Both the position numbers and the translations under genes were made by a program. DNA of 64,000 nt, taken from NCBI RefSeq assembly GCF_000250635.1, contig NC_016940.1:2094001-2158000 (forward strand). Reading direction: 5' to 3'. The DNA comes from Saprospira grandis str. Lewin. Its GTDB lineage: Bacteria > Bacteroidota > Bacteroidia > Chitinophagales > Saprospiraceae. The number at the start of each line of letters is the position of its first letter. The stretch's first letter is position 1. This document shows, piece after piece, positions 1,413 through 61,117 of the stretch. The notes under the pieces were generated by a model. The model saw nothing but the letters and a program-made list of their open reading frames with translations. It searched no databases and was not told the DNA's origin.

Positions 1413-1533
1413 GGGGCCTCCGCTGCGGCTTCGCCTTGCGGCGCTACGCTTTGGGGCTCGCAGGTCTGCTCGGCCCTTCGCAGGCTTCGCCTGCTCGGTC
1501 TGGCCTTCGGCCACCCCGCCGCATCGCTAGGCC
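1413..1533 (+). repeat. GGCC cloverleaf element, copy 1 (type A, forward)
   Basis: Type A element (closing stem GGCCT/AGGCC). The first hairpin is enlarged. The conserved core with CTCGCAGGTCTGCTCGG is present, then hairpin 2 (GCAGG/CCTGC), hairpin 3 (TGGCC-TTC-GGCCA) and the CATCGCTAGGCC end. A GC-rich tail with further small hairpins runs on to about 1580, close to the start of the SDR gene. Confidence 0.9.
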
Positions 1534-1641
1534 AGTTTGGCCTGCGGCCAAAGGCGGCCAAGCCGCCTAGCGCTGCCCCAAATACAACCATTTGATTTAG
1601 CTGTTGTTTCTAAAGCATCAATAAGCTTAAAACAATCTATT

Positions 1642-2343
1642 ATGCAAGGAAAATCAATACTCATTATTGGCGCTAGTCGTGGCATTGGCGCGGCCTTGGC
1701 CCAAAAACTCCAAGCCGCAGGGGCCCAAGTGTATAATGCCAGCCGCTCGGCAGAAGGCCTGGGCAAAAATATTAGCTACGATGCCCTACAGGATGATCCC
1801 AAGGCGCTTTTGGCCCAATTGCCCAGCCAACTAGATGGCCTGGTCTATTGCCCCGGAAGCATCAATTTACGGCCCTTCCACCGCATCAAAGAAGAACAGT
1901 TTAATCAAGAGTTTGAGCTGAATGTCATGGGGGCGGTTCGTCTGCTACAAGCGGCTTTGCCCCAACTCAAAAAGGCCGAAGCAGGCGCTTCTGTGGTCCT
2001 TTTTAGTACGGTGGCGGTAAAGCTGGGCATGCCCTTTCATAGCGCTATTGCTATGGCCAAAGGCGCCCTAGAGGGCCTCACCAAATCTTTGGCAGCAGAA
2101 TGGGCCAGCCATAATATTCGCCTCAATGCAATTGCTCCTTCTCTAACTCATACCGATTTGGCCGAGCGCTTACTCAATACGGAGGCCAAGCAGGAGTCCG
2201 CCGCCAAACGCCACCCTTTGGGCCGCATCGGCCAGCCCCAAGATATTGCTAGCTTGGCCTATTATCTTCTGGACCAAAATAGCCAATGGATGACGGGCCA
2301 AATTTTAGGCTTAGATGGCGGCATGGGTAACCTAAAGGTCTAA
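1642..2343 (+). CDS. SDR-family oxidoreductase lacking the canonical catalytic tyrosine
   Basis: Short-chain dehydrogenase/reductase fold of 233 aa. The N-terminal nucleotide-binding motif is GASRGIGAAL. The classical YxxxK active site is not intact: the lysine lies in 'HSAIAMAKGALEGL', but the position four residues before it is isoleucine instead of tyrosine. From memory, a subgroup of bacterial SDRs shares this 'H-(A/S)-x-(I/V)-A-x-A-K-G' pattern, so this is a real divergent subfamily and probably not decay. The ATG at 1642 is chosen because the open frame upstream of it lies in repeat DNA and the glycine motif starts 7 residues later. Its stop overlaps the stop of convergent holB by 4 bp. 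Substrate unknown. Confidence 0.85.
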   Translation: MQGKSILIIGASRGIGAALAQKLQAAGAQVYNASRSAEGLGKNISYDALQDDPKALLAQLPSQLDGLVYCPGSINLRPFHRIKEEQFNQEFELNVMGAVRLLQAALPQLKKAEAGASVVLFSTVAVKLGMPFHSAIAMAKGALEGLTKSLAAEWASHNIRLNAIAPSLTHTDLAERLLNTEAKQESAAKRHPLGRIGQPQDIASLAYYLLDQNSQWMTGQILGLDGGMGNLKV

Positions 2344-3497
2344 AGTGGCTTAAAAATGCGATGAATTTTAATGGAGAGATCCAAAAAAAGAACCTTGGGA
2401 TGAGCGTTCCGCTCAATAAAATACAGATGATCGTTAAAGAGCTGTTGCAGCTTATCAATAGCAGGTAAGGGAAGCAATTTTGCTAGGCCCTGGGCCGCCT
2501 TTTGGTCCTGCGCCGATAGGCGCAAACCACTAGGGGGGAAACCCGCCTGCAATAGGCTGAGCTCTCTAAGGAAAAATAGGCCGTATTCCAAAAAGAGCAG
2601 CTGCTCTTTACGGCCTGTTTTACTGCCCTTTTTGCCCTCTTTGGGGTGCTTGCCCGTTACAAATTGCTCTACCCAATAGACCATAGGGCCGCGGCCCTGA
2701 TAACAGGCGCGGAGCCAGCCCGCAAAGGCTTGCCCCAGTTGCTGTTCTTCTTGGTTTTGGCCACTGGCCAGCTGTTTGGCTTTTCGGTAGTTGCCCTCCG
2801 AAAGATAGGCTACCTCTTTGGCCGTTTGTGTAGGAACGCCCTCTTGGACCAAGGCCTCGGCAATTAGCTCATCGTCTAAGGCGGGTAGTTTGAGCAACTG
2901 GCAGCGAGAGAGGATGGTGTTGAGAATAAGCTCGGCTCGTTCGGCCACTAAGAGAAAGACGGTATTGGGCTCGGGCTCTTCAATGAGTTTGAGCAGGCGG
3001 TTGCCCTCCTTGTCCAAATATTCGGGCATCCAGAGCAAAAGGATTTTAAAGCGGCCTTCTACCCGGGTAAAGCTAAATTTGCGCACAATATCTACACACT
3101 CCCGCTTATTGATATTGCCCCTTTGGTTATTGGCCCCCAAATAAAAAAGCCAATCGTTCATATTGACATAAGGGCCTTTTTCTTCTAGCATTTTGCGCCA
3201 TTCCTTAATATGGTCGCTGCTGACGGCTTTACTATCAATATTGGGATAAGAAAAGTGGAGATCTGGATGAATATTTCTCTGCACCTTTTTGCAGGCATTA
3301 CATTGCCCACAGGCATCGGCAATGCCAGACTCATTTTTCTCGCAAAGGAGGTATTGGCTATAGGCGAGGGCGAGGGCCAGGCCACCCGCCCCTTCTGGTC
3401 CCACAAAAATTTGGGCATGAGCGGTGCGCTCATGTTCATAAGAAACTTTGAGTTGCTCTATAGCGGCCTTCTGGCCCAATACATCCTTAAATTGCAT
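2340..3497 (-). CDS. holB: DNA polymerase III, delta' subunit (clamp loader)
   Basis: Delta' subunit of the clamp loader that places the beta clamp on DNA, 385 aa. The N-terminus ('FKDVLGQKAAIEQL', then 'HAQIFVGPEGAGG') is the AAA+ region. The P-loop is degenerate, with leucine where the Walker lysine would be, as expected for a non-hydrolysing delta' subunit. The zinc-binding cysteines are seen in 'CGQCNAC'. 'LLKLIEEPEPNTVFLL' and 'ILSRCQLLKL' match the sensor and SRC regions (here SRC is 'SRC'). It is transcribed alone, convergent with the SDR gene with a 4-bp overlap of ends. Confidence 0.92.
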   Translation of the reverse strand: MQFKDVLGQKAAIEQLKVSYEHERTAHAQIFVGPEGAGGLALALAYSQYLLCEKNESGIADACGQCNACKKVQRNIHPDLHFSYPNIDSKAVSSDHIKEWRKMLEEKGPYVNMNDWLFYLGANNQRGNINKRECVDIVRKFSFTRVEGRFKILLLWMPEYLDKEGNRLLKLIEEPEPNTVFLLVAERAELILNTILSRCQLLKLPALDDELIAEALVQEGVPTQTAKEVAYLSEGNYRKAKQLASGQNQEEQQLGQAFAGWLRACYQGRGPMVYWVEQFVTGKHPKEGKKGSKTGRKEQLLFLEYGLFFLRELSLLQAGFPPSGLRLSAQDQKAAQGLAKLLPLPAIDKLQQLFNDHLYFIERNAHPKVLFLDLSIKIHRIFKPL

Positions 3498-3553
3498 AGT
3501 ACAAATTTCTTTTTGGGCAATCGGCCCGCTTTATACGGCCGAAGGCCGTAAAT

Positions 3554-3667
3554 GGCCTAGCGATGTGCAGCAGTGGCCGTTAGGCCAGACCGAGCCGCTG
3601 AAAGCGGCGAAGGGCCGAGCGAATAGCGAGCTGCGGAACGTAGCGCCTGCCGCAGGCAGGAGGCCCC
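3554..3667 (-). repeat. GGCC cloverleaf element, copy 2 (type A, reverse)
   Basis: Reverse-oriented type A copy: begins GGCCTAGCGATG and ends AGGCCCC. Hairpin 3 has the variant loop TAAC, hairpin 2 is GCCGCT/AGCGGC and hairpin 1 is CCTGCC/GGCAGG. It has the 'GCGAATAGCGAGC' core variant. Joined to a module-D unit on its right. Confidence 0.9.
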
Positions 3668-3765
3668 AAAGCAGCAGCGAGCTGCGACAACAAGGACTTT
3701 AGTCCGCAGTTCGACGACCAAAGGGAGTAAACGTAGCGCCGAGGCGCGAAGCGAGGCGGAGGCCC
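3668..3765 (-). repeat. Element module D (GTCGTCGAACTGCGG-type unit)
   Basis: A distinct unit abutting copy 2. Reverse-complemented it reads GGGCCTCC, a hairpin, then TTTACTCCCTTTGGTCGTCG, AACTGCGG, a small hairpin, TTGTCG, and CAGCTCGCTGCTG. The same unit lies in the opposite orientation at 38844-38935. Its end is 12 bp from the stop of the glucosaminidase gene. Confidence 0.75.
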
Positions 3766-3777
3766 AAAAACCATCTA

Positions 3778-4818
3778 CTACTCCTTCTTCAATCGGATTT
3801 TATTGCCTGTTTGGGGAAGCGTTTTTCGGTAGATTTTATTCAGCTTTTCGAGTGATTTTAGGCGGATGCCATAATACTGAGAAACGGCCCGCAAATCTTG
3901 TCCTTTTCGGAGGATATGAAAATGCTGCTCGCCCTTATAGCGTTTCTTTTTGCGTTGGAGAAAGACATATTGTCCCGCCCTAGGGCGGCCCTGCTCGGCA
4001 AAATCGTTATAGCGCTCTAGCTTTTTGAGCTTAATATCGGCTCTTTGGGCCAGCTCGTGGAGGCTTTCGCCAACTTGTAGAACCATCGCTTTGCGGCCAT
4101 TGACCTCAATAATGCCCTTGGGCAATTCGAGCTCTACGGTATCCTTAATTTCACCGAAGGGGTCGGGAATGCGAATCGCCAGCCGTTCTTCTGGTCCCTT
4201 GACGCTATCTTTGGGTGGTGGTTGCAGATTGAAAATACTGTCTAATTCGCCTGGGGCCAGTTGTAAATCCTGAAAAGAGAGGTGGTCCAAACGATAAAGC
4301 TCATAGCGCTCAATGATGCTAATGAGATTTTTGCTATAGGTTTTTGCTGTGGCATAACCCGCCTTTTGCAGCCCTTTGGCCCAGGCTTTATAATCCGTTT
4401 TATCGAGATCGAAGAGAAAGCCGTAGCGCCAAGCTTTTTTAGGGTTGCGCAAAAACTCGCTATGAGCGATATAAGATTTTTCGGCTTGGTCATAAACTCG
4501 AAAGCAAGACTTGACCGTCTCATCATCCCAGAGATAAAAACTGGGGCCATCCCAATGCTTTTTTCCGCCGCATTTGATTCCAAAATGGTTATTGGCCTGA
4601 ATGGCCAGTTGGCTAGCGCCAGAGCCTGATTCTAGAATACCTTGGGCCATTTTGATACTGGCAGGAATACCCGCTCGGTCCATTTCTGCAATAGCGATAT
4701 GCTGAAACTGCAAGATATAAGCCTGCGTTTTGGCGGGGTCCAAATCCTCTATAGAAAAAGGTTTGGCCCAACTACTGGCTAAGGAAAAAAGGCAGAGAAA
4801 AAAAGCAAGGGATTTCAT
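3778..4818 (-). CDS. Secreted LysM glucosaminidase (GH73-type peptidoglycan hydrolase)
   Basis: Exported peptidoglycan hydrolase, 346 aa. A signal peptide covers about residues 1-18. The GH73/FlgJ-type catalytic domain spans roughly 30-175, with the likely catalytic glutamate E63 in 'MAQGILESGSGAS' and family features 'NNHFGIKC', 'YDQAEKSYIAHSEFL' and 'YATAKTYSKNLISIIE'. Two LysM-like wall-binding repeats follow at about 240-290 and 298-346 ('VLQVGESLHELAQ', 'HILRKGQDLRAVSQYYGI'). It is the last gene of the pheS operon, 6 bp after the polyprenyl synthase gene. The link to division or remodelling is inference. Confidence 0.9.
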   Translation of the reverse strand: MKSLAFFLCLFSLASSWAKPFSIEDLDPAKTQAYILQFQHIAIAEMDRAGIPASIKMAQGILESGSGASQLAIQANNHFGIKCGGKKHWDGPSFYLWDDETVKSCFRVYDQAEKSYIAHSEFLRNPKKAWRYGFLFDLDKTDYKAWAKGLQKAGYATAKTYSKNLISIIERYELYRLDHLSFQDLQLAPGELDSIFNLQPPPKDSVKGPEERLAIRIPDPFGEIKDTVELELPKGIIEVNGRKAMVLQVGESLHELAQRADIKLKKLERYNDFAEQGRPRAGQYVFLQRKKKRYKGEQHFHILRKGQDLRAVSQYYGIRLKSLEKLNKIYRKTLPQTGNKIRLKKE

Positions 4819-4824
4819 GGCGCA

Positions 4825-5811
4825 TTAGTGTTGGCGTTGCATGATGAAATTGAGAAACTGATAAAGAGGAGCTTTATCCGTTTGGTCTTTGGGGAGTTGG
4901 TCCAAGAAAGCAACCGCCTTGAGTCGGTAAGCCTCTACGGCTTGGCCAAGGGCGGCTTTGGCGCCAGAGCGCTCAAAAATAGCCTTAACGGTTTCGATTT
5001 TCTCCTCTTCTTTATCGGCTGGACAAGCTTGCTGATAAAGGGCCAATAACTGTTCTTTATCGGCGGCTGTACCTAGCTCTAGGGCCTTAATATAAAGGAC
5101 CGTCTTTTTATTTTGCAGAATATCTCCGCCGATGCGTTTGCCAAAGGTGGCGGCATCGCCAAAGCTATCGAGATAATCGTCTTGGAGTTGGAAGGCGATG
5201 CCCATATTTCGGCCAAATTCGCCTAGTAGTTCGGCCTCTTCGGCTGGGGCTTGGCCAATGAGGGCGCCCATTTTCATGGCGCCATAGAGCAGCACTGAGG
5301 TTTTGAGCTCAATCATTTTGAGGTAGCTTTCTAGGGCTACGCTCTGCATTTGCTCAAAGTTCATATCCATTTGTTGGCCTTCACAAACGCCAATGGCCGT
5401 TTCATTGTAGCAATCGAGCAAGGCGGCTAAATTTCCGCTGGCCGATTGGGCCAGGTACTTATAGCTATAGACCAGCATCACATCTCCAGAGAGGATAGCG
5501 GTATTGGTATCAAACTTTTTGTGCACCGTGGCCTTTCCCCTGCGCAAATCGGCCTGGTCCATAATATCGTCATGCATAAGCGAGAAATTATGGAAAAGCT
5601 CTATGGCATAGGCGGCGGGCAGGGCCGTTTCAATATTTTGGCCCAGATAGAGTTCTGCGGCCATTAATAGCAAAATGGGCCGCATTTGCTTGCCGCCCAA
5701 AGAAAGAATATAATCTAGGGGCTGATAAAGCTCCTGAGGTTGACCTTGGCCAAATTGTTCTTGGGCTGCATAGGCCCGATAAGCATTTTGGAGGCGTTGA
5801 AAAGCCTGCAT
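4825..5811 (-). CDS. Polyprenyl synthetase (trans-isoprenyl diphosphate synthase)
   Basis: Condenses isopentenyl diphosphate onto an allylic diphosphate to make farnesyl, geranylgeranyl or longer prenyl diphosphates; 328 aa. Both Mg-binding motifs are intact: DDIMD (residues 81-85, 'LMHDDIMDQADLRRG') and DDYLD (211-215, 'FQLQDDYLDSFGD'). The substrate-binding 'GGKQMRPIL' is at 39-47. Product chain length cannot be assigned with confidence; F76 is five residues before the first Asp. It sits between a small lipoprotein gene and a glucosaminidase gene in the pheS operon. Confidence 0.93.
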   Translation of the reverse strand: MQAFQRLQNAYRAYAAQEQFGQGQPQELYQPLDYILSLGGKQMRPILLLMAAELYLGQNIETALPAAYAIELFHNFSLMHDDIMDQADLRRGKATVHKKFDTNTAILSGDVMLVYSYKYLAQSASGNLAALLDCYNETAIGVCEGQQMDMNFEQMQSVALESYLKMIELKTSVLLYGAMKMGALIGQAPAEEAELLGEFGRNMGIAFQLQDDYLDSFGDAATFGKRIGGDILQNKKTVLYIKALELGTAADKEQLLALYQQACPADKEEEKIETVKAIFERSGAKAALGQAVEAYRLKAVAFLDQLPKDQTDKAPLYQFLNFIMQRQH

Positions 5812-5836
5812 AAGCGATTGGATTGAGGAAAGCTGT

Positions 5837-6253
5837 TTAGTAATTGTCTAAGTTGGCGACCACTAGCCATTTGCCTTCTCTTTGGACCATTTCAATATCT
5901 ACGGCCTCCTGATTGGCATTACAGCAGAGTTGGCAGCTGGTGCTGCCGTCTTTTTCTTGGCAGTCCAGTTGGCTAAAATCAAAACGGACCTTATCGAGCA
6001 GGGCCTCTTTTTGTGTGGGCTTAGCCGACTTAAACTGTAGCTCGGTGGCAAAGTAGCGCAATTGTTCTTGGCTAGAGGGCTCGCAGAAGGCCTCGGCTTT
6101 GGCAAAGTCTTCTGCGGCTACAGCCGTATAAAAGGCTTTGATTGCCGCTTGAGGAGTTTGTTGTTCTTGGCTATAATCTGGGCCTTCCCCCTGACAAGCG
6201 GTCAAGAGAGAAAGGCCCAAAATAAATAGCAACATAGGCGTCCAATTAGGCAT
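5837..6253 (-). CDS. Small lipoprotein (DUF4878-like)
   Basis: A 138-aa predicted lipoprotein. From the ATG at 6253 it reads MPNWTPMLLFILGLSLLTAC, a clear signal peptide with lipobox LTAC. The mature part has 'AAIKAFYTAVAAEDFAKAEAF', the pattern of DUF4878/NTF2-like lipoproteins, and ends in 'REGKWLVVANL'. The frame stays open upstream to 6316, but that start would put 21 residues before the signal peptide; the chosen ATG overlaps the pheS stop by 8 bp, typical of translational coupling. A CxxC/CC cluster near residues 106-110 is unusual for the family. Function unknown. Confidence 0.8.
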   Translation of the reverse strand: MPNWTPMLLFILGLSLLTACQGEGPDYSQEQQTPQAAIKAFYTAVAAEDFAKAEAFCEPSSQEQLRYFATELQFKSAKPTQKEALLDKVRFDFSQLDCQEKDGSTSCQLCCNANQEAVDIEMVQREGKWLVVANLDNY

Positions 6254-7283
6254 TGAGCACAGGATTAAATTGCTTGAGAAAACGCTGATCGTTTTCAAAA
6301 AATAGGCGGATATCATCTACCTCATATTTGAAAAGGGCAATGCGCTCAATTCCAATACCAAAGGCAAAACCAGTATATTCTTCGGGATCAATGCCACAGT
6401 TTTCCAACACTTTGGGGTCTACCATACCACAACCCAACACTTCTAGCCAACCTGTGCCCTTAGTTAGGCGGCGGTCCCGCTCAGTCTCTAGGCCCAAATA
6501 AACGTCCATTTCGGCGCTAGGCTCTGTAAATGGAAAATAAGAGGGACGCAGGCGGATATTGGTGGCGCCAAACATTTCTTTGGCAAAATAGTAAAGCGTT
6601 TGGCGAAGGTCGGCAAAGCTGACATCCTTGGCCACATAAAGGCCCTCAATTTGGTGGAATTGGCAGTGTGAGCGAGCCGAAACAGTTTCGTTGCGGTACA
6701 CTCGGCCGGGGGCCACAATGCGCAAAGGGGGCTTTTGCTTGAGCATGCTTCGGATCTGTACGGGCGAAGTATGCGTGCGCAAAACCATTTTTTCAGGATC
6801 TTTGACATAAAAAGTATCCTGCATATCGCGGGCGGGATGGTCCTCGGGGGTGCCCAAAGCCGTAAAGTTGGTCCAATCGTCCTCAATTTCACGTTCTTCG
6901 GCTACCGAAAAGCCAATGCGCTCAAAAATTTGCAACATTTCCTCCATGACCAAGGCCACAGGATGGCGGCTACCCCAGTTTTCTGGCTGGGCAGGAGCGG
7001 TCAGGTCAATGCGCTCATAGTTTTTCAATTCGGCTCGTTCTAGCGCTTCTTTTTTAGCATAAAACTTAGCTTCTGCGGCCTGCTTGATTTCATTGAGCAG
7101 TTGGCCATATTCTTTTTTGCGTTCGTTGGGGACATTTCGCATCTCGCCAAAAAGGGGCTTGAGTTGGTTTTTGGTCCCTAAAAATTTTAAACGAAACTGC
7201 TCTAGTTCTTCTTTATTTTGAGGCGCTGCTGCGGCCACTTCTTGGGCCAGCAGATTGGCCTTCTCAAAAGCCTCGATTTGCAT
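6246..7283 (-). CDS. pheS: Phenylalanyl-tRNA synthetase alpha subunit
   Basis: Catalytic alpha subunit of the (alpha-beta)2 PheRS, charging tRNA-Phe; 345 aa, normal length. An N-terminal coiled-coil (residues 1-90) is followed by the class II core: motif 1 region 'HPVALVMEEMLQIFERIGF', 'DTFYVKDP', 'LRTHTSPVQIRSM', motif 2 'RVYRNETVSARSHCQFHQIE' and motif 3 'GFAFGIGIERIALFKYEVDD'. First gene of a four-gene operon (pheS, lipoprotein, prenyl synthase, glucosaminidase). The beta subunit gene is not in the window. Confidence 0.97.
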   Translation of the reverse strand: MQIEAFEKANLLAQEVAAAAPQNKEELEQFRLKFLGTKNQLKPLFGEMRNVPNERKKEYGQLLNEIKQAAEAKFYAKKEALERAELKNYERIDLTAPAQPENWGSRHPVALVMEEMLQIFERIGFSVAEEREIEDDWTNFTALGTPEDHPARDMQDTFYVKDPEKMVLRTHTSPVQIRSMLKQKPPLRIVAPGRVYRNETVSARSHCQFHQIEGLYVAKDVSFADLRQTLYYFAKEMFGATNIRLRPSYFPFTEPSAEMDVYLGLETERDRRLTKGTGWLEVLGCGMVDPKVLENCGIDPEEYTGFAFGIGIERIALFKYEVDDIRLFFENDQRFLKQFNPVLNA

Positions 7284-7417
7284 TTTTTCTGGTATTTGGT
7301 TACTTCTTGCGAAGATAATGAACTTGTGTTAAAACTTGAGGGCCTTGGGGCTAAATCTAGTTTTTGCCTGTTTTTCTGGGCTGAAAACCAGGGAGCTTTT
7401 CTTTTTTATTAGGATTT

Positions 7418-7562
7418 GGGGCCCGCGGCCGGCTAGGCCTTTGGCCTAGGTCGGCCGCCGCTATGCTGCGCCGCTCGCAGCTCTGCTCGGCCCTTCACAA
7501 AACTTCGCTAACGCTCGTTTTGTTTGGTCTGGCCTGCGGCCACGGCTGCGCAGCGCTGGGCC
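7418..7562 (+). repeat. GGCC cloverleaf element, copy 3 (type C, forward)
   Basis: Type C copy: begins GGGGCCCGCGGCC and ends GCAGCGCTGGGCC, giving closing stem GGCCC/GGGCC. Hairpin 1 is long (GCGGCC..CTAGGCC-TTT-GGCCTAG..GGCCGC). Hairpin 2 is an extended AACAAAACGAGCG-like stem. It lies 134 bp upstream of the pheS start. Confidence 0.88.
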
Positions 7563-7573
7563 AAGAAGCGGCT

Positions 7574-7902: not shown

Positions 7903-8307
7903 TTAGTGCAAATCAAGAATATAGAAGAAATAAAAGGCCGCAATTCGCCATCTGGCTGCTCCTCGAGCATTGCCCACCTTGGAGCCTCTATAATAAACAT
8001 CTCCGTCTGATTCTACTTCGCCAATTTTAGAGCCCTTGTAATAGACATCTCCATCCGACTCAATTTCTCCGATTTTGGAGCCTTTATAATAAACATCTCC
8101 GTCTGATTCCACTTCGCCAATTTTAGAGCCCTTATAATAGACGTCTCCATCCGACTCAAATTCAGCAATTTTAGAACCTTTGTAGTAGACATCTCCATCG
8201 GACTCAATAACGCCAATTTTGGAGCCTTTGTAGTAGACAGATTGGGCCTGTGTAGCCGTGAACGATAGGGCCAGCAAAAGGGCCATGAAAAAAATACGCT
8301 TGAGCAT
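7903..8307 (-). CDS. Secreted protein of tandem 16-residue repeats
   Basis: A 134-aa protein with a signal peptide (about residues 1-21, ending TQAQ). The body is almost entirely a 16-residue repeat, consensus VYYKGSKIGEVESDGD, in about five to six copies, with short alternating strands, glycines and acidic turns suggesting a beta-rich solenoid. The C-terminus departs into a basic then aromatic tail ('AARWRIAAFYFFYILDL'). At DNA level the 48-bp units alternate between two codon versions, pointing to 96-bp duplications. I know similar 'DGDVY.xGsKIG' repeats in bacterial hypothetical proteins but no function. A candidate promoter and a leader of about 120 nt lie upstream. Confidence 0.75.
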   Translation of the reverse strand: MLKRIFFMALLLALSFTATQAQSVYYKGSKIGVIESDGDVYYKGSKIAEFESDGDVYYKGSKIGEVESDGDVYYKGSKIGEIESDGDVYYKGSKIGEVESDGDVYYRGSKVGNARGAARWRIAAFYFFYILDLH

Positions 8308-8435
8308 AAAATATGGGTTGATGAATGAATTGGTCCTGCCATTAAAGGAAAAAAGACCAAGGAAATAATTTATAATAAGATAGGGATTAAGCCGCAGCTT
8401 TGCTTAAAAAGTTGCTTCTATTTTGTTGTGTATTG

Positions 8436-8466: not shown

Positions 8467-8563
8467 TATTTTTAAGCATTTTTCCTCCTTTTTATCTTAT
8501 TGAGCAGTTAGTTTTGGATGTAGGGCAGGCGGCGAAGCCGCCTGCAAAGGGCCGAAGGCCCGC

Positions 8564-8677: not shown

Positions 8678-8687
8678 AAAAAGGCAT

Positions 8688-8720: not shown

Positions 8721-8729
8721 GGAAGGGGG

Positions 8730-9288: not shown

Positions 9289-9341
9289 TTAGTTGGGGGG
9301 AACTTATAGTCTGCGTCTTTCCAAGGCGCTAATTAGTATTG

Positions 9342-9369
9342 GACCGAGCCCGCAGGGCGGGGCAGCCCC
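9342..9369 (-). repeat. Partial GGCC element (type B GGGGCTG end only)
   Basis: Only the terminal part is present: GAGCCCGCAGGGCGGGGCAGCCCC, matching the outer end of type B copies such as 16015-16135. It lies upstream of the histidine kinase gene. Confidence 0.7.
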
Positions 9370-9425
9370 AAAAAATGCGTATAATTACAGTCGTCTACAG
9401 ATTATATATTAACAGCAACTGTAAA

Positions 9426-12723: not shown

Positions 12724-12757
12724 GCCCCTATAGGTGTTTTCCTTTTGTTTTTTTTTG

Positions 12758-12888
12758 GGGGCTGCCCACTCGCTTCGCTCGGGTCGGGCTGTTTCAGGGC
12801 TCGCAGGTCTGCTCGGCCCTTCGCAAAACTTCGCTAGCGCTCGTTTTGCTCGGTCTGGCCTTCGGCCACCCTTGTCCATCCCTCAGCC
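12758..12888 (+). repeat. GGCC cloverleaf element, copy 5 (type B, forward)
   Basis: Type B: begins GGGGCTGCCC and ends CATCCCTCAGCC, closing stem GGCTG/CAGCC. Hairpin 2 is the long version with GCAAAA at its base and CGCTAGCG near its tip. A three-hairpin tail module follows at 12910-12980. Confidence 0.9.
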
Positions 12889-12909
12889 GCGTCGCTTCGC
12901 TCCTTTTTA

Positions 12910-25633: not shown

Positions 25634-25697
25634 ACAGCTAAGTTGAAAAAGATCTGTAAGAACAAACTCATAAGACTATGGACCCGCTTATTTTTTT

Positions 25698-25812
25698 GGG
25701 GCCTCCGCAGCAAAGCTGCGGCGCTACGTTTCGGGGCTCGCTATTCGCTCGGCCCTGCGGCGCAAAGCGCCTTGGTCTGGCCCTGCGGGCCACCCCTGCA
25801 CATCGCTAGGCC
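25698..25812 (+). repeat. GGCC cloverleaf element, copy 12 (type A, forward)
   Basis: Follows a T7 run. Hairpin 1 is CCGCAG-CAAAG-CTGCGG, hairpin 2 GGCGC-AAA-GCGCC, hairpin 3 TGGCCC-TGC-GGGCCA, end CACATCGCTAGGCC. All three stems differ in sequence from most other type A copies yet remain paired. Confidence 0.92.
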
Positions 25813-25877
25813 AATTGGAGGCCGCCAACTTTTGGCTTGCCCAATGACCTTTTCGTCATAAGTTGCTCTAAATGAAT

Positions 25878-28977: not shown

Positions 28978-29095
28978 ATTTATAGATTATTTTGAGTTTG
29001 CTGTTTAGCTTATTTTTGCTTGGCAACCAAAGCTAAGGATTTAATTGCGGTTATCAAATTTTGCTGATTCCTTGGCGGGAAAGAGGGGCAGATTT

Positions 29096-29185
29096 GGCCC
29101 AGCGCTGCGCAGCCGTGGCCCGAAGGGCCAGACCCAAGCCGCCGCAGGCGGCTGCAGGGCCGAGCAGACCTGCGAGCGGCGCAGC
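29096..29185 (-). repeat. GGCC cloverleaf element, copy 13 (type C), left part interrupted by IS
   Basis: Begins GGCCCAGCGCTGCGCAG, with hairpin 3 TGGCCC-TTC-GGGCCA, hairpin 2 AGCCGCC/GGCGGCT and the core up to AGCGGCGCAGC. The rest resumes at 30741 after the IS4-family element. Together they form a complete type C copy. Confidence 0.9.
29175..29185. repeat. Target-site duplication, left copy (11 bp)
   Basis: AGCGGCGCAGC here and at 30741-30751 flank the IS. One copy is expected in an unbroken type C core, so this is a target duplication. Confidence 0.8.
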
Positions 29186-30740
29186 CTTGGGTTGACCCAC
29201 TTTTTATAGCGGTGTCAATTTAGGGATCGATATCCATCATACATAAATATGAATCTCTCTAATCCTAGTCCTATTTTTTTGACGGATACGGCATGCCTAG
29301 TTTTCTTCACTGCGCCATTAAATCCGCCCAACCTCGCTATGATCCAATAGGCCCAAGCTATTGATTTAGAGGTGAATGGATTGCGCAAAGAAGGGCTTTG
29401 GCTTTCGCCTTTTAGATATTGTTTAAATATAAGATCTAAGACTTCTACTTCATCTTCTGTGAAAATAGAGGTTGCTGGAGTCTCATTATCTTGGTTAAGT
29501 CCAGCTTCTTTAAGCTTAAGGACCTTGTCAGATGCACTGATTGCCATAAGTATCATTTTGCGGATAGCTTTACCTGTTTTCAAACATATATTTTCAATAT
29601 CAAAGCCATCTGATTTTAAATATTTAAAGTATGTTTCAATTAACCACCTCTTGCGGTAGCAAAGAACAAGCTCTAAGAGCTCTTCTTCGCTGTTGATTTC
29701 TTCATTTGTGAGTAAGCGCCAACTGATGGTTTTATCATCATGATCTTTTTTTGTTCGGCTTCTTTTTCTAGCGGCAGATTTTGAAAAACCTTTGCCCTTT
29801 TCAAAAACCTCAATAACATTGATGTCATTGACTTAGGCTTTGGTTCGCCAAGAACATACTTACAAGATTTGGGAACGGCAAAAGTCACTTTTTTAGATCG
29901 AATAACTAGCTTCTTCCCGTTAAGTTTTTTACGGCTACTCTTGACCGTTTCTGTCGTCTCAAAGTCTGCTGGATAATGTTCAAAGACATCACATAATGGA
30001 ATCTTTTTGCCATCCTCCCAAATCGTTGCTCGTCTATCTGTTCGAGACCGAATCAAGAACTTAATATGCTGTCTGAAAAAACTTTCCATCATAGGATAAA
30101 CATCTCCTTCTCGATCACAAACATGTAAAATATCAATTAGGTCGTTAATTATTTTTAACGCAGATTCTGTCTCTTCTACATTTATTTTCCACCTCGTAAT
30201 TTCACCTCTAAAATGACCCGTATTTCTATTTTCAGCCTCCTTACAAGTTACTCTATTTTTATATCGATTATAAAGCTGAATACCTCCTAAGCCATGATAA
30301 TGAAAGCTTTCTCGACCATATAGTAGAGCCATGTGAAGAAATACAGACAAATTTGTTTCCCGACCTCCAGGGCCTAAACCCTCTTTGTCGGTTAGTCTAT
30401 TTCTTTGCTTGTTCAGTACAACTTCAGAGGTGTCGTGAAAGGCCAGAAGCTTTTCTTCAACCACCTTCATAGACTCCCTACTTTTGCCAATAAACTCAAA
30501 TTGAATGTATTCCTCAGTAAGATTTTTGTTTGATAACAACCTCATGAAAGCCTTACGGTCTGCATCAGTTTTTGCTACATTTGTTAAATGTGGGTTAGGA
30601 TTATTTTTTAGACTCTCTACTAATCTATAACATACTCTTACTGATTGCTTATTTAACATAAATGAAGATACATTTGTACTGTCCATATAAATCTTGATTT
30701 AGAGCTAATTTAAGCTTATTTTTAAAAGTGGGTCAACCCA
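29186..30740 (-). mobile_element. IS4-family (Tn5-like) insertion sequence
   Basis: About 1.55 kb bounded by inverted repeats TGGGTTGACCCACTTTT (from 29188) and its complement ending at 30740, with two extra bases (CT) on the left between the target duplication and the perfect repeat. It carries one DDE transposase gene, broken by a frameshift. It is inserted within a type C repeat element. Base composition is clearly more AT-rich than the flanks. Confidence 0.92.
29215..30686 (-). pseudogene. Tn5/IS4-type transposase, frameshifted
   Basis: Reads in two frames. The first (30686 to about 29835) has an N-terminal DNA-binding region, catalytic Asp in 'LLAFHDTSEVV' and the second Asp in 'HVCDREGDVYPM'. 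After 'GEPKPK' homologous reading continues in the -1 frame ('VNDINVIEVFEKG') with the perfect Y-x2-R-x3-E-x6-K signature 'YRKRWLIETYFKYLK' to the stop at 29215. No slippery heptamer is obvious at the junction, so a one-base deletion is the simpler reading. Without correction both products lack part of the DDE site. Uncorrected length would be about 490 aa. Confidence 0.88.
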
Positions 30741-30796
30741 AGCGGCGCAGCATAGCGGCGGCCGACCTAGGCAAAGCCTAGCCGGCCGCGGGCCCC
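30741..30796 (-). repeat. GGCC cloverleaf element, copy 13, right part
   Basis: Starts with the duplicated AGCGGCGCAGC (30741-30751), then hairpin 1 (GCGGCCG..CTAGG-CAAAG-CCTAG..CGGCCGC) and the GGGCCCC end. Confidence 0.9.
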
Positions 30797-30797
30797 A

Positions 30798-30842
30798 AAA
30801 AAAGAAAAACACCCTAGACTAAAAAATTAGCATAGGGTGTTT
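30798..30842 (-). terminator. Intrinsic terminator of the 121-aa gene
   Basis: A stem AAACACCCTAGAC / GCATAGGGTGTTT (imperfect) with A/T loop and T-rich minus-strand tail, 21 bp after the stop. Its tail abuts repeat copy 13. Confidence 0.8.
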
Positions 30843-33403: not shown

Positions 33404-33476
33404 TATTTTTTTCTCATCTTTTCTATCTACTCTTCTAACTTCCTTATCTTAGGGGCCGTTAGGAGAATAATGAGGA

Positions 33477-33593
33477 GGGGCCTCCGCTGCGGCTTTGCCT
33501 TGCGGCGCTACGTTTCGGGGCTCGCAGGTCTGCTCGGCCCTTCGGCCTTCGGCCTCGGTCTGGCCTAGGGCCACCCCTACACATCGCTAGGCC
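33477..33593 (+). repeat. GGCC cloverleaf element, copy 14 (type A, forward)
   Basis: Begins GGGGCCTCCGCTGCGGC, hairpin 2 GGCC-TTC-GGCC, hairpin 3 TGGCCTAGGGCCA, end CACATCGCTAGGCC. Lies between the divergent Rrf2 gene and porX, 133 bp from the first and 62 bp from the second. Confidence 0.9.
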
Positions 33594-33655
33594 AATTGCT
33601 CCTTTCTTTCCCCATTTTCCTTTATGGAGTTTAACAAAAAAGCTATTTCTAATTT

Positions 33656-38843: not shown

Positions 38844-38935
38844 GGGCCTCCCGCCTTCGGCGGGCGGTTACTCCCTTTGGTCGTCGAACTGCGGCCTAAA
38901 GGCCTTGTTGTCGTTTCGCAGCTCGCTGCTGTTCT
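38844..38935 (+). repeat. Element module D, forward copy
   Basis: GGGCCTCC, hairpin CCCGCC-TTC-GGCGGG, then GTTACTCCCTTTGGTCGTCG, AACTGCGG, GCCTAAAGGC, TTGTTGTCG and CAGCTCGCTGCTG. It matches the reverse complement of 3668-3765 and is followed by a full type A copy in the same order as there. Confidence 0.8.
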
Positions 38936-43193: not shown

Positions 43194-43265
43194 TCGGCTT
43201 TAAGAGGTCATGATAATAAATAGGCCCTTTCAAAAAAGGTCCTTTTTGAAAGGCGGGGAATCTTC

Positions 43266-43388
43266 CTCCGTCAAAAATCGCCTTTTTTGAAGGAAGGGGG
43301 CTGTTTCTCCGTCAAAAATCGCCCTTTTTGAAGGAAGGGGGCTGTTTCTCCGTCAAAAATCGCCCTTTTTGAAGGAAGGGGGCTGAAA
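43266..43388. repeat. 41-bp tandem repeat, three copies, each with a hairpin
   Basis: Units start at 43266, 43307 and 43348 with exactly 41-bp spacing; copies 2 and 3 are nearly identical. Each has TCAAAAA-TCGCCC-TTTTTGA, which can fold into a terminator-like hairpin. A related hairpin lies just before at about 43227-43252. They sit between the fic stop and the mutS start. Confidence 0.88.
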
Positions 43389-54524: not shown

Positions 54525-54547
54525 GGGGCTGGGAAATTGTTAAAAAA

Positions 54548-54561
54548 CCCCCTTTTGGGGG
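54548..54561. other. Small hairpin CCCCC-TTTT-GGGGG after the thioredoxin gene
   Basis: A 5-bp GC stem with a T4 loop preceded by A6. On the minus strand it would have a T6 tail; on the plus strand it lacks one, so it is not a clear terminator for the thioredoxin gene. Confidence 0.4.
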
Positions 54562-54631
54562 ATAGGAGTTGAATTGGAACAATAGTTGGCTTATGTTCGC
54601 TGTTCTGAAGCAAGAACATAAAAAAAGAATA

Positions 54632-55090: not shown

Positions 55091-55120
55091 CGCCTCCAAA
55101 CTTTCCTAACTTTGCTAACG

Positions 55121-55154
55121 GCTGTTTCTCTTTTTTAGAGAGGCAGCTTTTTTT
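55121..55154 (+). terminator. Intrinsic terminator after the small secreted protein gene
   Basis: GCTGTTTCTCT / AGAGAGGCAGC stem (one bulge) with T5 loop, then T7. It ends 10 bp before the next start codon. Confidence 0.85.
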
Positions 55155-55164
55155 ATTTTTGGGG

Positions 55165-56241: not shown

Positions 56242-56367
56242 GGGCTGCCCCTTCGGCCCTCTGGGCCTGCGGGTCGGGCTGTGCCGCAGCTCGCAAGTCT
56301 GCTCGGCCCTGCAGCGCTAAAGCGCTTTGGTCTGGCCCTGCGGGCCACTGCTATCCATCCCTCAGCC
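56241..56367 (+). repeat. GGCC cloverleaf element, copy 22 (type B, forward)
   Basis: Begins GGGGCTGCCCC on the last base of the glycosyltransferase stop codon and ends CATCCCTCAGCC. Hairpin 2 AGCGCT-AA-AGCGCT, hairpin 3 TGGCCC-TGC-GGGCCA. Further hairpins (AGGCGC/GCGCCT, GGCGGC/GCCGCC) run on to about 56402. Confidence 0.92.
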
Positions 56368-56516
56368 GAGGCGCTGCGCGCCTTGGCGGCGGCTGCGCCG
56401 CCTTCTTGGACCAAAAAAAGAGCGGCCTAGCTTAGTTTTAAAGAGGAAAGTAAACATCTTAAAAAAAAAACCCTATTTTATCAATTACTCTCTAGTAATA
56501 GATTTGAATCCTCCCT

Positions 56517-57974
56517 ATGTCTAAGCGATCTTTATACCTCCTTTTGGGCCTCTTGGCCGTTTTTGGCCTTAGTTTTTTGCCTTTGGGCATTGCGGCTCCT
56601 TTGCTTTATGCCCTTCGTTTGGCGCTCATTGTTGCCGCTAGCCAATTGGCCCTAAAGCCCTTGCATCTTCCCCGACGGTTTTTTATCGTTTTGGGGAGCT
56701 TAGTGGTCTTTTTGGCCTTGGGCATGGCCGCTAGCTGGTTGTTGGTTATGGCTCAGGTAGCGCTTTTCCTCTTTTTGGCCTTGGTTGTTGTCGATGCTAT
56801 CTTGCTTTTTCATCCTAAGATTAAGCTCAAAGCAGCGCGAAAACTGCCCAAGTTGTTCTCGCTTAGCGACCCCAACTCTATTAAATTAGAGCTAGACAAT
56901 CAGTCGCCTGTTGCTTTATCGCTTGAAATCATTGACGAGCTCCCCTTACAGTTTCAAAAGCGAGATTTTCAGTTGTTTCATCAGCTGCAAAAAGGGGAAA
57001 AAGATACCTTGGTCTATGAGCTCAAGCCTTTGGAGCGGGGAGAGTATGTGTTTAGAAATATCAACATCTTTTTGCGGTCTAAATTGGGCCTGATTGAGCG
57101 GCATATTATTGTAGAGCAGGAGCAAACGATTCCCGTTTATCCCTCTATTATTCAAATGCGCAAATATGAGCTTTTGGCCCTTGCTCGAATCTCTATTTTT
57201 CCAGGTGTCAAGAAAATGAGACGGCTAGGGAACAGCTATGAGTTTGAGCAAATCCGAAACTATGTAAAAGGCGATGACTTTAGGAGCATCAACTGGAAGG
57301 CCACTAGCCGCCGCAATGAGTTGATGGTTAACCAATATGAAGATGAGCGTTCGCAGCAGGTCTTTTGTGTGATAGACAAAGGCCGCTCGATGAAAATGCC
57401 TTTTGAGGGCCTCAGCTTGATGGATTATGCCATTAACAGTAGCTTGGTCATTTTGAATATTGCTCTACAAAAGCACGATAAGGCGGGCTTGATGAGTTTT
57501 TCGGATAAAATTGGAAGCACGGTAAAGGCAGAAAGTGGGCCCAAGCATTTGCGGACCATCTTGGAGGCGCTTTATCGAGAGAAAGAGCGAAACTTTGAGG
57601 CCAACTATGAATTGTTGTTTCAGGCCTCTCGTCGCTTTATTCGCCGCCGCAGTTTGATTTTTCTCTACACCAACTTTGAGAGTTTTTCGGCCATGCAGCG
57701 GGTTTTGCCCATTTTGCGGCGCATTAACCATTTGCATTTGTTGGTGGTTGTCTTTTTTGAGAATACCGAAATTCAGGATTATGCCAAGCAAGAGGCTTAT
57801 GATACTGAAATGATTTACAATTGGACCATTGCGCAAAAGTTTGTAGAGGAAAAGCAGCGAATTGTTCGGGAGTTGCGGCAATATGGCATTCAGTCTATTT
57901 TAACTCGGCCCGAGGATTTGTCTATCAATACTGTAAATAAATATTTGGAGCTCAAGGCTAGGGGCTTAATTTAA
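56517..57974 (+). CDS. DUF58-domain membrane protein with degenerate vWA site
   Basis: A 485-aa protein, usually found with MoxR ATPases. Two to three N-terminal membrane helices (about 5-90) are followed by a beta domain and 'NSYEFEQIRNYVKGDDFRSI', then NWKATSR, the DUF58 hallmark. The vWA fold starts 'VFCVIDKGRSMKMPFEGLSL', with the MIDAS D-x-S-x-S changed to DKGRS. A GTP/MoxR partner is not in the window. Terminator shared with uvrA. Confidence 0.9.
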   Translation: MSKRSLYLLLGLLAVFGLSFLPLGIAAPLLYALRLALIVAASQLALKPLHLPRRFFIVLGSLVVFLALGMAASWLLVMAQVALFLFLALVVVDAILLFHPKIKLKAARKLPKLFSLSDPNSIKLELDNQSPVALSLEIIDELPLQFQKRDFQLFHQLQKGEKDTLVYELKPLERGEYVFRNINIFLRSKLGLIERHIIVEQEQTIPVYPSIIQMRKYELLALARISIFPGVKKMRRLGNSYEFEQIRNYVKGDDFRSINWKATSRRNELMVNQYEDERSQQVFCVIDKGRSMKMPFEGLSLMDYAINSSLVILNIALQKHDKAGLMSFSDKIGSTVKAESGPKHLRTILEALYREKERNFEANYELLFQASRRFIRRRSLIFLYTNFESFSAMQRVLPILRRINHLHLLVVVFFENTEIQDYAKQEAYDTEMIYNWTIAQKFVEEKQRIVRELRQYGIQSILTRPEDLSINTVNKYLELKARGLI

Positions 57975-57975
57975 G

Positions 57976-58010
57976 AAAAAGGGATATCGCTTATGCGATA
58001 TCCCTTTTTT
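57976..58010. terminator. Bidirectional terminator between the DUF58 gene and uvrA
   Basis: Perfect stem AAAAAGGGATATCGC / GCGATATCCCTTTTT with a 4-nt loop (A and T tracts on both sides), lying between two convergent genes. Confidence 0.92.
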
Positions 58011-58023
58011 GATGGCCAAGGGG

Positions 58024-60864
58024 CTACAACTCTAGTTTTAGGAAGCGGCCAGTATGGCTATTGGGGCAGGCGGCAATTTCTTCTGGGCTACCTTGGGCAA
58101 TAATTTGCCCGCCTTTGGCCCCTCCTTCTGGACCAATATCAACCAGATAGTCGGCTACCTTAATGACATCCATATTATGTTCGATCACCAGGACCGTATT
58201 GCCTCTTTCCACCAACATATTGAGGACATTGAGCAGCAGGCGAATATCGGCAAAATGTAATCCGGTGGTGGGTTCATCTAGAATATAGAAGGTGTTGCCC
58301 GTATCTCGTTTAGACAGCTCCTTGGCTAGTTTGATGCGTTGGGCTTCCCCACCAGAGAGCGTCGTCGCCGATTGTCCGAGCGTAATATAGCCTAGGCCTA
58401 CATCTTGGAGGGTAGCAATTTTGCGATGAATTTTGGGCAGGTCGGCAAAGAAGTCACTAGCTTCATCTACCGACATCTGTAGCACATCGCTAATACTTTT
58501 CTTCTTATAAATAATCTCGAGGGTTTCGCGATTATAGCGTTTGCCTTTACAGCTTTCGCATTCTACCTCTACATTGGGTAAAAACTGCATTTCGATTAGG
58601 CGGTAGCCGCTGCCTCCGCAATCTTCGCAGCGTCCGCCAGAGACATTAAAGGAAAAGCGGCCGGGTTTGTAACCTCGGATTTTAGCTTCGGGGATAGCAG
58701 CAAAGAGCTTGCGAATTTCGTCAAAAACGCCAATATAAGTAGCGGGATTAGAGCGGGGTGTTCGGCCAATGGGCTGTTGGTCAATTTCGATGACCTTATC
58801 AATATGTTCTATTCCTTCGATACTGTCGTAGGCAAGGGGTTTTTGGATCGAATTATAGAAATGTTGGCGGAGAATAGGGTAGAGGGTTTCATTGACTAGG
58901 GTTGATTTTCCGCTACCCGATACGCCAGTGACACAGATGAGTGTTCCTAGCGGCAGTTCTAAATCGACGGACTTGAGGTTATTGCCTTTTGCTCCTTTTA
59001 GCTGAAGTTGTTTGCCATGGCCTTTTCTGCGGGCTGTAGGGGTAAGGATTTTGAGTCGGTTAGCCAGATAATCGGCAGTAATGCCCGATTGAGAGAGGAA
59101 GTCATGGGGTTTTCCTTCAGCGACAATTTCGCCACCGAGTTTACCGGCTTTTGGTCCCAAATCGATCAGATAATCGGAGGCCAGCATAATATCTTTATCA
59201 TGTTCTACCACCAAGACCGAATTGCCGATATCGGTTAATTCTCGGAGGGCTACAATAAGCTGTTCATTATCTCTTTGGTGCAGGCCGATACTAGGTTCAT
59301 CTAAGACATAAGTAATACCGGTCAGTTGAGAGCCAATTTGGGTAGCTAGGCGGATGCGTTGAGATTCTCCGCCGGAGAGGGTTCTGGCGGGGCGGTTGAG
59401 TTGCAGATAATCGAGGCCCACCTCTAGGAGGAAGCCTAGTCGGAGGCGTAATTCCTTAATAATATCGGTACCAATTAGCTGTTGGCGTTTACTCAACTGG
59501 CTGGGGAGTTCTTCTAGCCAATCATAGAGGCTACGAATATCCATTTGGGCTAATTCGGCGATATTTTTTTCGGCCAATTTAAAATAGAGTGATTCTTTGC
59601 GCAGGCGGCTGCCTTCACATTGGGGGCAATCGATGACCCGCATAAACTCCTCGGCCCAGGAGCGGATTTTTTCTGAGCTAGAGCTTTTATAATAATGTTT
59701 GAGCATACGCACCAGGCCTTCATCGGCTAGATTGTGCGACAATTCTTCTCGGCCAAAATTGCGGGCATCAAAGCTACCGTCTCCGCCATAGAGAATGGTC
59801 CGGAGAGCTTCTTCGGGAATTTCCTTGACGGGAGTAGAGAAGCTAAACTTATATTTTTTGGATAGGGCGCGCAGTTGTTTGAAGGTCAGGTTTTTTCGGA
59901 CCTCTCCTAGGGGGACAATAGCTTGTTCATTAATACTTTTGCTATCATCTGGAATGACCAGTTCTAGGTCCACCTCATGTAGTTCGCCTAAGCCTTTACA
60001 GTGGGGGCAGGCGCCATAAGGAGAGTTAAAAGAGAAGCTATTGGGGGAGGGTTCTTCATAAGAAATGCCAGAATCGGTACACATCAGATACTTACTATAC
60101 TGATGAATTGTTTCGCTTTCGTGTTCCATAAACATGACAAAGCCGTTGCCATGTTTGAGGGCTGTTTTTAGAGAAAGTTCGAAGCGGTCGCGGCGTTTTT
60201 CGCTCACCTTGAGGCGGTCTACTACCAACTCAATATCATGAGTTTTATAGCGGTCGATTTGCATACCTGCTTCAAGATCGATCATATAGCCATCTATGCG
60301 CATTTTGGTAAAGCCCTGTTTGCGCATTTGTTCAAAGAGTTCGCGGTAGTGTCCTTTACGGGCGCGGACCAAGGGGGCCAGCAAGATGCCCTTTTTCCCT
60401 TCAAAATGTTGGAAGATATGCTCGATAATTTGCTCCTCGCTATAGCGTTGCATTTTTTTGCCTGTTTTATAGGAATAGGCATCGCTAGCGCGGGCATAGA
60501 GTAGGCGGAGAAAATCGTAAATTTCGGTAACGGTACCTACGGTAGAGCGGGGATTTTTGCTGGTTGTTTTTTGTTCGATAGCGATAACGGGGCTAAGGCC
60601 TTCAATTTTTTCGACATCGGGTCGTTCCATATTTCCGATAAACTGTCGGGCATAAGAGGAGAAGGTCTCCATATAGCGTCTTTGGCCCTCTGCGTAGATA
60701 GTATCGAAGGCCAGCGATGATTTGCCGCTACCACTTACCCCAGTAATGACGACCAATTGGTTGCGGGGAATACGCAAGTTAATTTTTTTGAGGTTATGCT
60801 CGGAGGCGCCCCAAATTTCCATAAATTCTTGCTCTTTTGACTCTTGCTGGCTCATGATAGGCAT
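58024..60864 (-). CDS. uvrA: Excinuclease ABC subunit A
   Basis: DNA-damage recognition ATPase of nucleotide-excision repair, about 946 aa. Two ABC cassettes: Walker A '[20 protein letters not shown]' and '[20 protein letters not shown]'; signatures '[18 protein letters not shown]' and '[18 protein letters not shown]'. Zinc modules are seen at '[13 protein letters not shown]' with '[10 protein letters not shown]' and at '[10 protein letters not shown]' with '[10 protein letters not shown]'. Two ATGs (60864 and 60855) are possible starts; the first is used. The upstream TTG at 60888 seems less likely. Confidence 0.96.
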
Positions 60865-61001
60865 TTCTAATTGAGAATGAAGTGGCAAAGATAATAAGTC
60901 TTCCTTGCTCCGAACAAAGCCGTCTTAAAAAAGATTGGAACTTTATTAAAGATTTGCGTTGGGGGAGGCGGCGCAGCCGCCTTCAAGGCGCGGAGCGCCT
61001 C

Positions 61002-61117
61002 GGCTGAGGGATGGACAGCAGTGGCCGAAGGCCAGACCAAAGCGCGAAGCGCTGCAGGGCCGAGCAGGCCTGCGAGCTGCGAAACAGCCCGACCCGAGCG
61101 GAGCGAGGGGCAGCCCC
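61002..61117 (-). repeat. GGCC cloverleaf element, copy 23 (type B, reverse)
   Basis: Begins GGCTGAGGGATGG and ends GGGGCAGCCCC. Hairpin 1 is the CCTCGCTCCGCTCGGG type, hairpin 2 AGCGC-TTC-GCGCT, hairpin 3 TGGCC-TTC-GGCCA. Two extra hairpins (GGCGGC/GCCGCC and AGGCGC/GCGCCT) precede it at 60967-61001. It lies between divergent uvrA and hisA. Confidence 0.9.

Follow-up and report, generated by a model that had tools for sequence, protein, structure and literature searches.

Cloverleaf-like intergenic DNA elements of alternating orientation in Saprospira grandis and their possible origin as miniature transposons

In integron attC sites it is a folded DNA strand that marks the place of recombination, and its stems vary yet remain paired; within an array the sites are bound to cassettes and lie in one common orientation. 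The enterobacterial repetitive intergenic consensus (ERIC) is an intergenic repeat unit of the ~100–170-bp class. Further enterobacterial intergenic repeat units, RU-1, RU-2 and RU-3, appear in PMC2759123. According to PMC2817692 and PMC3733652, repetitive extragenic palindromes (REPs) are 20–40 bp long, carry a GTAG (or CGTC) tag at one end and change orientation from copy to copy within local clusters, the bacterial interspersed mosaic elements (BIMEs); the latter source also states that G-T pairs are often seen in GTAG repeats. Here we analyze a stretch of 64,000 nucleotides from Saprospira grandis str. Lewin (contig 1, bases 2094001–2158000, denoted the window; the genome comprises 2 contigs of 4,345,237 and 54,948 bases), which carries 23 copies of a cloverleaf-like intergenic element. 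The element belongs to a large family whose members, in the stretches sampled, mostly follow one another in alternating orientation.

Inventory and fold of the elements

The covariance model R1, trained on 24 copies, was applied to the window and to 20 stretches of 20 kb distributed evenly over the genome (19 from the chromosome and one from the plasmid; 464 kb in total), and matches were taken up to E 1. From the resulting 166 matches, 157 with E < 1e-5 were retained, corresponding to one copy per 2.96 kb and, by extrapolation from this sample, to ~1,490 copies in the genome; some of the 9 weak matches set aside (E 0.008 to 0.69) are fragments adjoining full copies. A 15-base core gave 18 window matches with up to three mismatches where 1.35 were expected, and a 21-base core gave 896 matches genome-wide at the same tolerance with none for the reversed control, which excludes chance. 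The consensus element runs TGGGGCC...AGGCC over a unit of 110–150 bp. All 23 copies that an earlier inspection of the window (the original prediction) had listed, in both orientations, were recovered by the model at essentially the same places, with spans of 115–137 bp and one of 148 bp including 2 flanking bases on each side; the copy said to be split by an insertion is indeed split, at 29094, with its far side at ~30741 by alignment to the related genome G001. Their intergenic location was likewise borne out, since only 8 of 150 sampled copies having called open reading frames (ORFs) on both sides overlap one by more than 30 bp.

The cloverleaf consists of a closing stem, P1, followed by hairpin 1 and a helix P2–P3; enclosed within P3 are a mini-hairpin, hairpin 2 and hairpin 3. 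The hairpin variants that the original prediction named are present, but it had missed the long-range helices P3 and P2, the small fourth hairpin and the alternation of orientation. Regular-expression parsing of 157 core matches, after removal of 3 without the GGTC anchor and 23 without a P1 side, left 131 copies. In these, P1 is formed by GGCCT/AGGCC (75 copies), GGCTG/CAGCC (38), GGCCC/GGGCC (17) or a mixed set (1), and P3 by six common partner sets (GCAG/CTGC, GGGG/CCCC, AGGG/CCCT, GCCG/CGGC, GTGG/CCAC and CTGG/CCAG) plus a few others.

Covariation was assessed on 24 copies, chosen from 126 for clean alignment. Pairing was found in 96.0% of 873 cells as against 82.8% after shuffling, and double-changed cells numbered 107 as against 32.1, with 0 one-sided changes. 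Because the copies are mosaics, linkage was checked as a possible source of false covariation. The covariation claimed earlier proved real: it exceeds column-shuffle, slide and linkage controls in all but one of five measures, the exception being the number of further pair types, for which 57 of 500 shuffles were as high (500 of 500 for the alignment from G017, a genome of another genus). Across the 131 parsed copies, normalised mutual information between partner strands amounts to 0.97 for P1a–P1b and 0.83 for P3a–P3b, the latter still being 0.82 within the largest subfamily (76 copies); the values of P3a with modules nearer to it are 0.04 (core), 0.09 (hairpin 2) and 0.13 (hairpin 3). Run unaided on the same 24-copy alignment, RNAalifold recovered P1, the inner part of P2, P3, the mini-hairpin and hairpins 2 and 3, and placed hairpin 1 in another register. 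The same cloverleaf emerged, again unaided, from 27 copies of G017, whose pairing is 98.1% (92.0% shuffled) with 58 double changes (19.3 shuffled); in G017 the closing stem reads GCATC/GATGC, and at least three partner sets occur for hairpin 2 and likewise for the mini-hairpin. Collectively, these data make the cloverleaf fold well supported.

Alternating orientation and regular spacing

Neighbouring elements face opposite ways in 123 of 136 cases (65 plus-minus, 58 minus-plus, 9 plus-plus and 4 minus-minus among the 157 copies), whereas permuting the orientations gave a mean of 76.8 alternations and a maximum of 105 in 20,000 trials. Neighbours closer than 2.6 kb alternate without exception (68 of 68); beyond 2.6 kb, 55 of 68 do. 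Copies of like orientation are evenly spaced, with a mean of 5,490 bp (n = 115, standard deviation (sd) 1,572, minimum 2,563). The two kinds of gap between opposed neighbours differ in length: where the T-rich 5′ sides look towards each other, the mean is 3,555 bp and the shortest gap 599, and where the 3′ sides do so, the mean is 1,496 bp and the shortest gap 37. Neighbours belong to the same subfamily in 21 of 49 T gaps, 22 of 56 C gaps and 5 of 12 same-orientation gaps.

The window copies are as follows (coordinates, strand, feature).

1412..1535, plus: cloverleaf element, R1 120.6 bits
3552..3668, minus: cloverleaf element, R1 113 bits; a weak partial match (E 0.34) adjoins at 3677-3767
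7417..7564, plus: cloverleaf element, R1 91.3 bits
8562..8678, minus: cloverleaf element, R1 79.1 bits; absent in G001, apparently deleted between GGCGGC repeats
12757..12890, plus: cloverleaf element, R1 76 bits
13096..13223, minus: cloverleaf element, R1 63 bits
15600..15714, plus: cloverleaf element, R1 109.2 bits
16013..16136, minus: cloverleaf element, R1 69.1 bits
20543..20658, plus: cloverleaf element, R1 109.3 bits
20827..20953, minus: cloverleaf element, R1 120.5 bits
23631..23752, minus: cloverleaf element, R1 53.9 bits; left neighbour also minus, the sole exception to alternation among the 23
25697..25814, plus: cloverleaf element, R1 119.6 bits
29094..29185, minus: split copy, 3′ part, R1 72.2 bits; the model match extends to 29230, inside the insert
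30741..30810 (end approximate), minus: split copy, 5′ part, from the alignment to G001
33476..33595, plus: cloverleaf element, R1 120.2 bits
35888..36007, minus: cloverleaf element, R1 117.3 bits
38935..39052, plus: cloverleaf element, R1 118.6 bits
40411..40534, minus: cloverleaf element, R1 70.6 bits
44485..44602, plus: cloverleaf element, R1 114.9 bits
46171..46295, minus: cloverleaf element, R1 100.1 bits
50521..50644, plus: cloverleaf element, R1 101.3 bits
53279..53393, minus: cloverleaf element, R1 111.3 bits
56240..56369, plus: cloverleaf element, R1 81.6 bits; the first G of its GGGG is the G of the left ORF's TAG stop codon
61000..61118, minus: cloverleaf element, R1 76.2 bits

Alternation extends to the plasmid stretch (7 of 8 neighbours) and to the relatives G001 (23 of 27) and G002 (29 of 30). 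In G017, 20 of 26 neighbours alternate (permutation mean 13.3; 156 of 20,000 permutations as high), three weak matches being excluded and the stretches having been chosen for holding matches. Mere exclusion between copies of like orientation was simulated and rejected as insufficient: with an exclusion of 2.5–3.5 kb and random intergenic slots taken from the ORF calls, alternation reached 0.72–0.80, with 5–10 exclusions unmet per run, and even at 3.5 kb it stood at 0.80 with a coefficient of variation (CV) of the spacing of 0.42, compared with the observed 0.90 and 0.29, and the simulation produced no gap asymmetry. Whenever one copy alone inserts into a row of alternating copies, a same-orientation pair of neighbours results, so that either paired gain and loss or the loss of surplus copies is needed. 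The alternating, even spacing, weaker in the second genus, is not given by random insertion and only partly by simple exclusion.

Several further features of the sampled DNA were noted. The insertion in the 29094 copy occupies ~29185-30741, and the G001 alignments flanking it overlap by 11 bases, like a target duplication. A second module of ~50 bp (TTACTCCCTTYGGTCGTCGAACTGCGG..TTGTTGTCGC) lies inside or beside elements at window 3668-3767 and about 38860-38935, in the G001 counterpart of the 7417 copy and in the G002 counterpart of the 15600 copy; in the observed cases its position is either the junction of GCTACG with the P3 strand or immediately 5′ of a copy. One chromosomal stretch (L039, contig 1, 1700001-1720000) has 34% G+C compared with 47% for the genome and is more sparsely populated than the other stretches (4 elements in 20 kb); it is perhaps foreign DNA. 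Apart from the elements, the window contains a 48-bp tandem repeat at 7972-8239, within a minus-strand ORF (7903-8307) that perhaps encodes a repetitive protein, copies taken in a 124-nt register being 76–86% like the reference, and a 41-bp tandem repeat (TCAAAAATCGCC...) at 43230-43385 between two ORFs.

Pairing in DNA or in RNA

An RNA stem is expected to tolerate G.U pairs. Wobble was counted in the best 150 of the 166 matches (5,225 cells, in alignments fitted to the model, with one fixed G.T pair excluded). We found 4,912 Watson-Crick cells, 24 G.T, 22 A.C and 267 others in the window genome. G.T being about as rare as A.C, the pairing looks to be kept at the DNA level, and the near-absence of wobble speaks against a simple RNA fold of a single strand. 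Rfam contained no window match at its gathering threshold and one sub-threshold match (E 0.46) in the 8 kb tested; a known RNA family was thus rejected, as the original prediction had held. Strong covariation with almost no wobble makes these elements a case in which selection on a DNA fold can be separated from selection on an RNA fold.

An RNA-level role, in which the transcribed cloverleaf would stabilise, process or terminate messenger RNAs at the ends of transcription units, nevertheless has observations in its favour. At least one copy is held by 128 of 347 gene junctions called in the sampled stretches, and occupancy is highest where genes converge (35 of 52 convergent, 18 of 49 divergent and 75 of 246 co-directional junctions). 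Of the 88 copies with the T side turned towards a gene end, 34 have that side beginning −1 to 15 bases from it, and the consensus found by RNAalifold is an RNA fold. Against such a role stand the wobble count and two further results. Orientation is independent of transcription (48 vs 43 in co-directional junctions, no preference), so that its being set by transcription was rejected. Hairpin-plus-T-run terminators by a strict rule occur on the T side at gene ends in 4 of 88 copies, as compared with 9 of 83 on the other side, which led us to reject the T-run as a general terminator tract. We consider an RNA-level element improbable.

Origin, candidate function and relation to known systems

Related genomes were surveyed with 60 genomes, the window's own included, and at most 58 candidates scored per genome, which makes absences weak. 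Among the candidates scored, copies at E 1e-5 were found in 7 of the 60 genomes, in 5 genera. Two records of a plasmid collection matched, both from Saprospira, and among 69 named loci around one conserved gene R1 matched (E up to 0.05) only in S. grandis DSM 2844. In the genomes G013 and G049, 17 of 18 fetched stretches held one R1 match and the remaining one held two, too few for an alternation test.

In G017 the fold lies within ~173-bp units that have terminal inverted repeats, with ends GGGTGYATTTCAWWWTGTCG. The end pattern with at most one mismatch matched 120 times (63 forward, 57 reverse), the control giving 0; by a looser rule, among 29 copies with both flanks, the 5′ end was seen in 16, the 3′ end in 12 and both in 5. 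A facing pair of ends was found in 18 of 20 fetched stretches, 168–192 bp apart in 17 and 249 bp apart in one. Each of the 18 end-paired units is recognised by the cloverleaf model of G017, at E 7e-9 in the worst case, and duplications of 7–9 bp flank 11 of them, 10 perfect and one with a single mismatch. The G017 units are therefore miniature inverted-repeat transposable elements (MITEs). Of the claim that the element is of no recognised type, the exclusion of REP/BIME (no GTAG/CGTC end tag, 110–150 bp) and of Rfam families holds; since the family takes the form of a transposon-like MITE in a related genus, complete with inverted terminal repeats and duplicated targets, its kind is partly known.

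One ISKra4-family-like transposase was detected in G017 (176 bits, under the curated cut-off of 205), and visual comparison shows its ends to resemble those of the MITEs at 13 of 20 positions. No element with identical ends was found in G017 in a search confined to the ISKra4 family. The link between ISKra4 and the MITEs is a lead only. At the locus L271 (G017 contig 207), the ISKra4-like transposase lies ~50 bp from an element copy cut by the locus start. Descent from REPs and their associated tyrosine transposases was rejected on unit size and the missing end tag, and the numbers of Y1_Tnp domains also appear not to track the repeats: the window genome and G001 have one each, G002 has three, and the same-genus genomes G003 and G004, in which no copies were found, have 2 and 3.

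The DNA of G001 is ~94% identical to that of the window genome, and 22 of the 23 window sites are shared with it and 23 of 23 with G002, in the same orientation. Modules inside the copies differ between the relatives at these common sites. In 45 site comparisons of P3, made with the 3′ arm at whichever of three offsets fitted best, a choice biased towards pairing, 22 were unchanged and paired and 15 had both arms changed and fully paired; in 4 one arm had changed (two of these being parser failures), in 3 both had changed without full pairing, and 1 was unchanged and not fully paired. At the 53279 copy, both P3 arms and the core differ together in G001, and hairpins 2 and 3 are identical. We read the P3 changes as probable conversion from copy to copy under selection on the fold.

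A rival account takes the copies to be selfish MITE remains that have no host function and whose fold was once needed by a transposase. The fold would then be kept up in Saprospira by gene conversion between copies and palindrome-correcting repair, and alternation would result because close direct repeats delete the intervening DNA and are purged. The terminal repeats and target duplications of G017, the differing modules at common sites and the loss of a G001 copy apparently by slippage between short repeats fit this account, as does the spacing minimum, full-length neighbours of like orientation never being closer than 2.56 kb. At ~9339-9375 the window retains a piece of a minus element, from its T side, where G002 has a full copy, its plus partner and extra DNA; a gene block and its pair were apparently lost in the lineage of the window. 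The account is at odds with the P1 and P3 partners, which still match although they lie far apart across reassorting modules, and with the simulated exclusion up to 3.5 kb described above; moreover, the copies are probably too diverged for efficient recombination. We regard it as possible, if doubtful.

Three several-kb indels relative to G001 or G002 each add or remove one plus and one minus copy jointly (joined coordinates: G001 5954/8353, G002 11847/14600 and G002 62573/65678). These events, and folded sites with stems variable yet paired, suggest boundaries of recombination cassettes akin to integron attC, whereby blocks would be gained and lost between folded elements and alternation kept automatically. 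However, there are only three such events, the one in G001 breaks strict alternation, and one copy was lost singly, that at 8562 in G001. Elsewhere the long alignments of the relatives to the window are collinear, and no inversion occurs among those >400 bp on the same strand, to which the listing was confined. Cassette boundaries thus appear very unlikely.

Our tentative best explanation is that the family is an old and very large group of short DNA elements that began as MITEs in Saprospiraceae, was probably domesticated and now acts as a predicted polar DNA-level site. Selection would keep the fold in DNA, as an extruded cruciform or in single-stranded DNA, and a DNA-binding or DNA-processing protein of the host may use the fold as a polar site. 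Such a protein would need one correctly oriented site every few kilobases per strand, for instance to bound small chromosome or supercoil domains; surplus copies of the same orientation would be redundant and then lost, and module swapping would most simply be gene conversion from copy to copy. We infer both the function of the element and the cause of alternation, and favour loss of surplus copies around a polar DNA-level function, with the selfish account close behind.

A number of observations weigh against the favoured polar-site explanation. As to origin, terminal repeats and target duplications were seen in G017 only and none were recognised by eye in the Saprospira copies, so that domestication in Saprospira is an inference; G003 and G004 gave no copies with patterns or model, although their assemblies are fragmented (G003 being 63% complete) and few candidates were scored. 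A partner protein was not found. With regard to the fold, 4 of 5 single copies fold no better than shuffles, as DNA or RNA, for which reason thermodynamic stability was rejected as proof, and the predicted minimum-energy fold often differs from the whole cloverleaf. The earlier claim that the fold matters stands on the covariation; it is qualified by the missing G.T wobble, which speaks against a one-strand RNA fold, and by these single-copy foldings. Other module links are not small (hairpin 3–P3b 0.41, P1a–P3a 0.31 and, for the adjacent P1a–hairpin 1, 0.96). G.T and A.C counts are 14 and 8 in G001/G002 rows and 20 and 23 in G017, in alignments fitted to the model. The ORFs are our own crude calls. 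Once the 9 weak matches are included, 125 of 145 neighbours alternate (mean 80.5 and maximum 103 among 5,000 permutations), and 6 of 124 same-orientation spacings are shorter than 2.56 kb, several of these arising from fragments next to full copies. The element orders of G001 and G002 are not independent of the window, the sites being common. Finally, two independent lattices at the observed spacings give an alternation of 0.85 (sd 0.027) versus 0.904 observed; regular same-orientation spacing is therefore the main fact, and alternation and spacing are largely one observation. The two-lattice model fails to produce the gap asymmetry (2,059 vs sd 392).

The ~1,500 copies reached by extrapolation would mean that a folded DNA element accounts for about 4% of this bacterial genome, and their pattern permits a direct test of domain organisation at the DNA level. 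It is conceivable, though in our judgement unlikely, that oriented cruciform-forming elements divide both chromosome and plasmid into short polar domains, with two strand-specific lattices of ~5.5 kb period in which neighbours face each other as inverted pairs around blocks of few genes. Such a layout, if true, would give bacteria a counterpart of oriented boundary sites, derived from a domesticated transposon and read by some protein.

Titles and abstract beginnings returned by literature searches contained no description of these repeats, and a mention elsewhere in print may exist; PMC10508125 does not mention them. The closest relatives in kind are the MITEs, with which the elements share being short, non-coding, intergenic and multicopy, and the G017 units also the terminal inverted repeats and target duplications. 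The Saprospira copies differ in having no recognisable terminal repeats, and in their multi-branched fold, sites common to several species and alternating orientation. To our knowledge, no multi-branched covarying fold or genome-wide alternation belongs to ERIC or RU-1/2/3, which are likewise intergenic and of similar length; they are set apart here by description, not by sequence. attC sites resemble the Saprospira elements as folded sites with variable paired stems and are unlike them in orientation, the alternation of 123 out of 136 neighbours leaving no one-orientation array. REP/BIME are similar as numerous intergenic GC-rich palindromes that form mosaics of alternating orientation. The Saprospira units, by contrast, are 110–150 bp long, untagged and mostly kilobases apart, they alternate across all sampled stretches, and the G-T pairs frequent in GTAG repeats are nearly absent from them.

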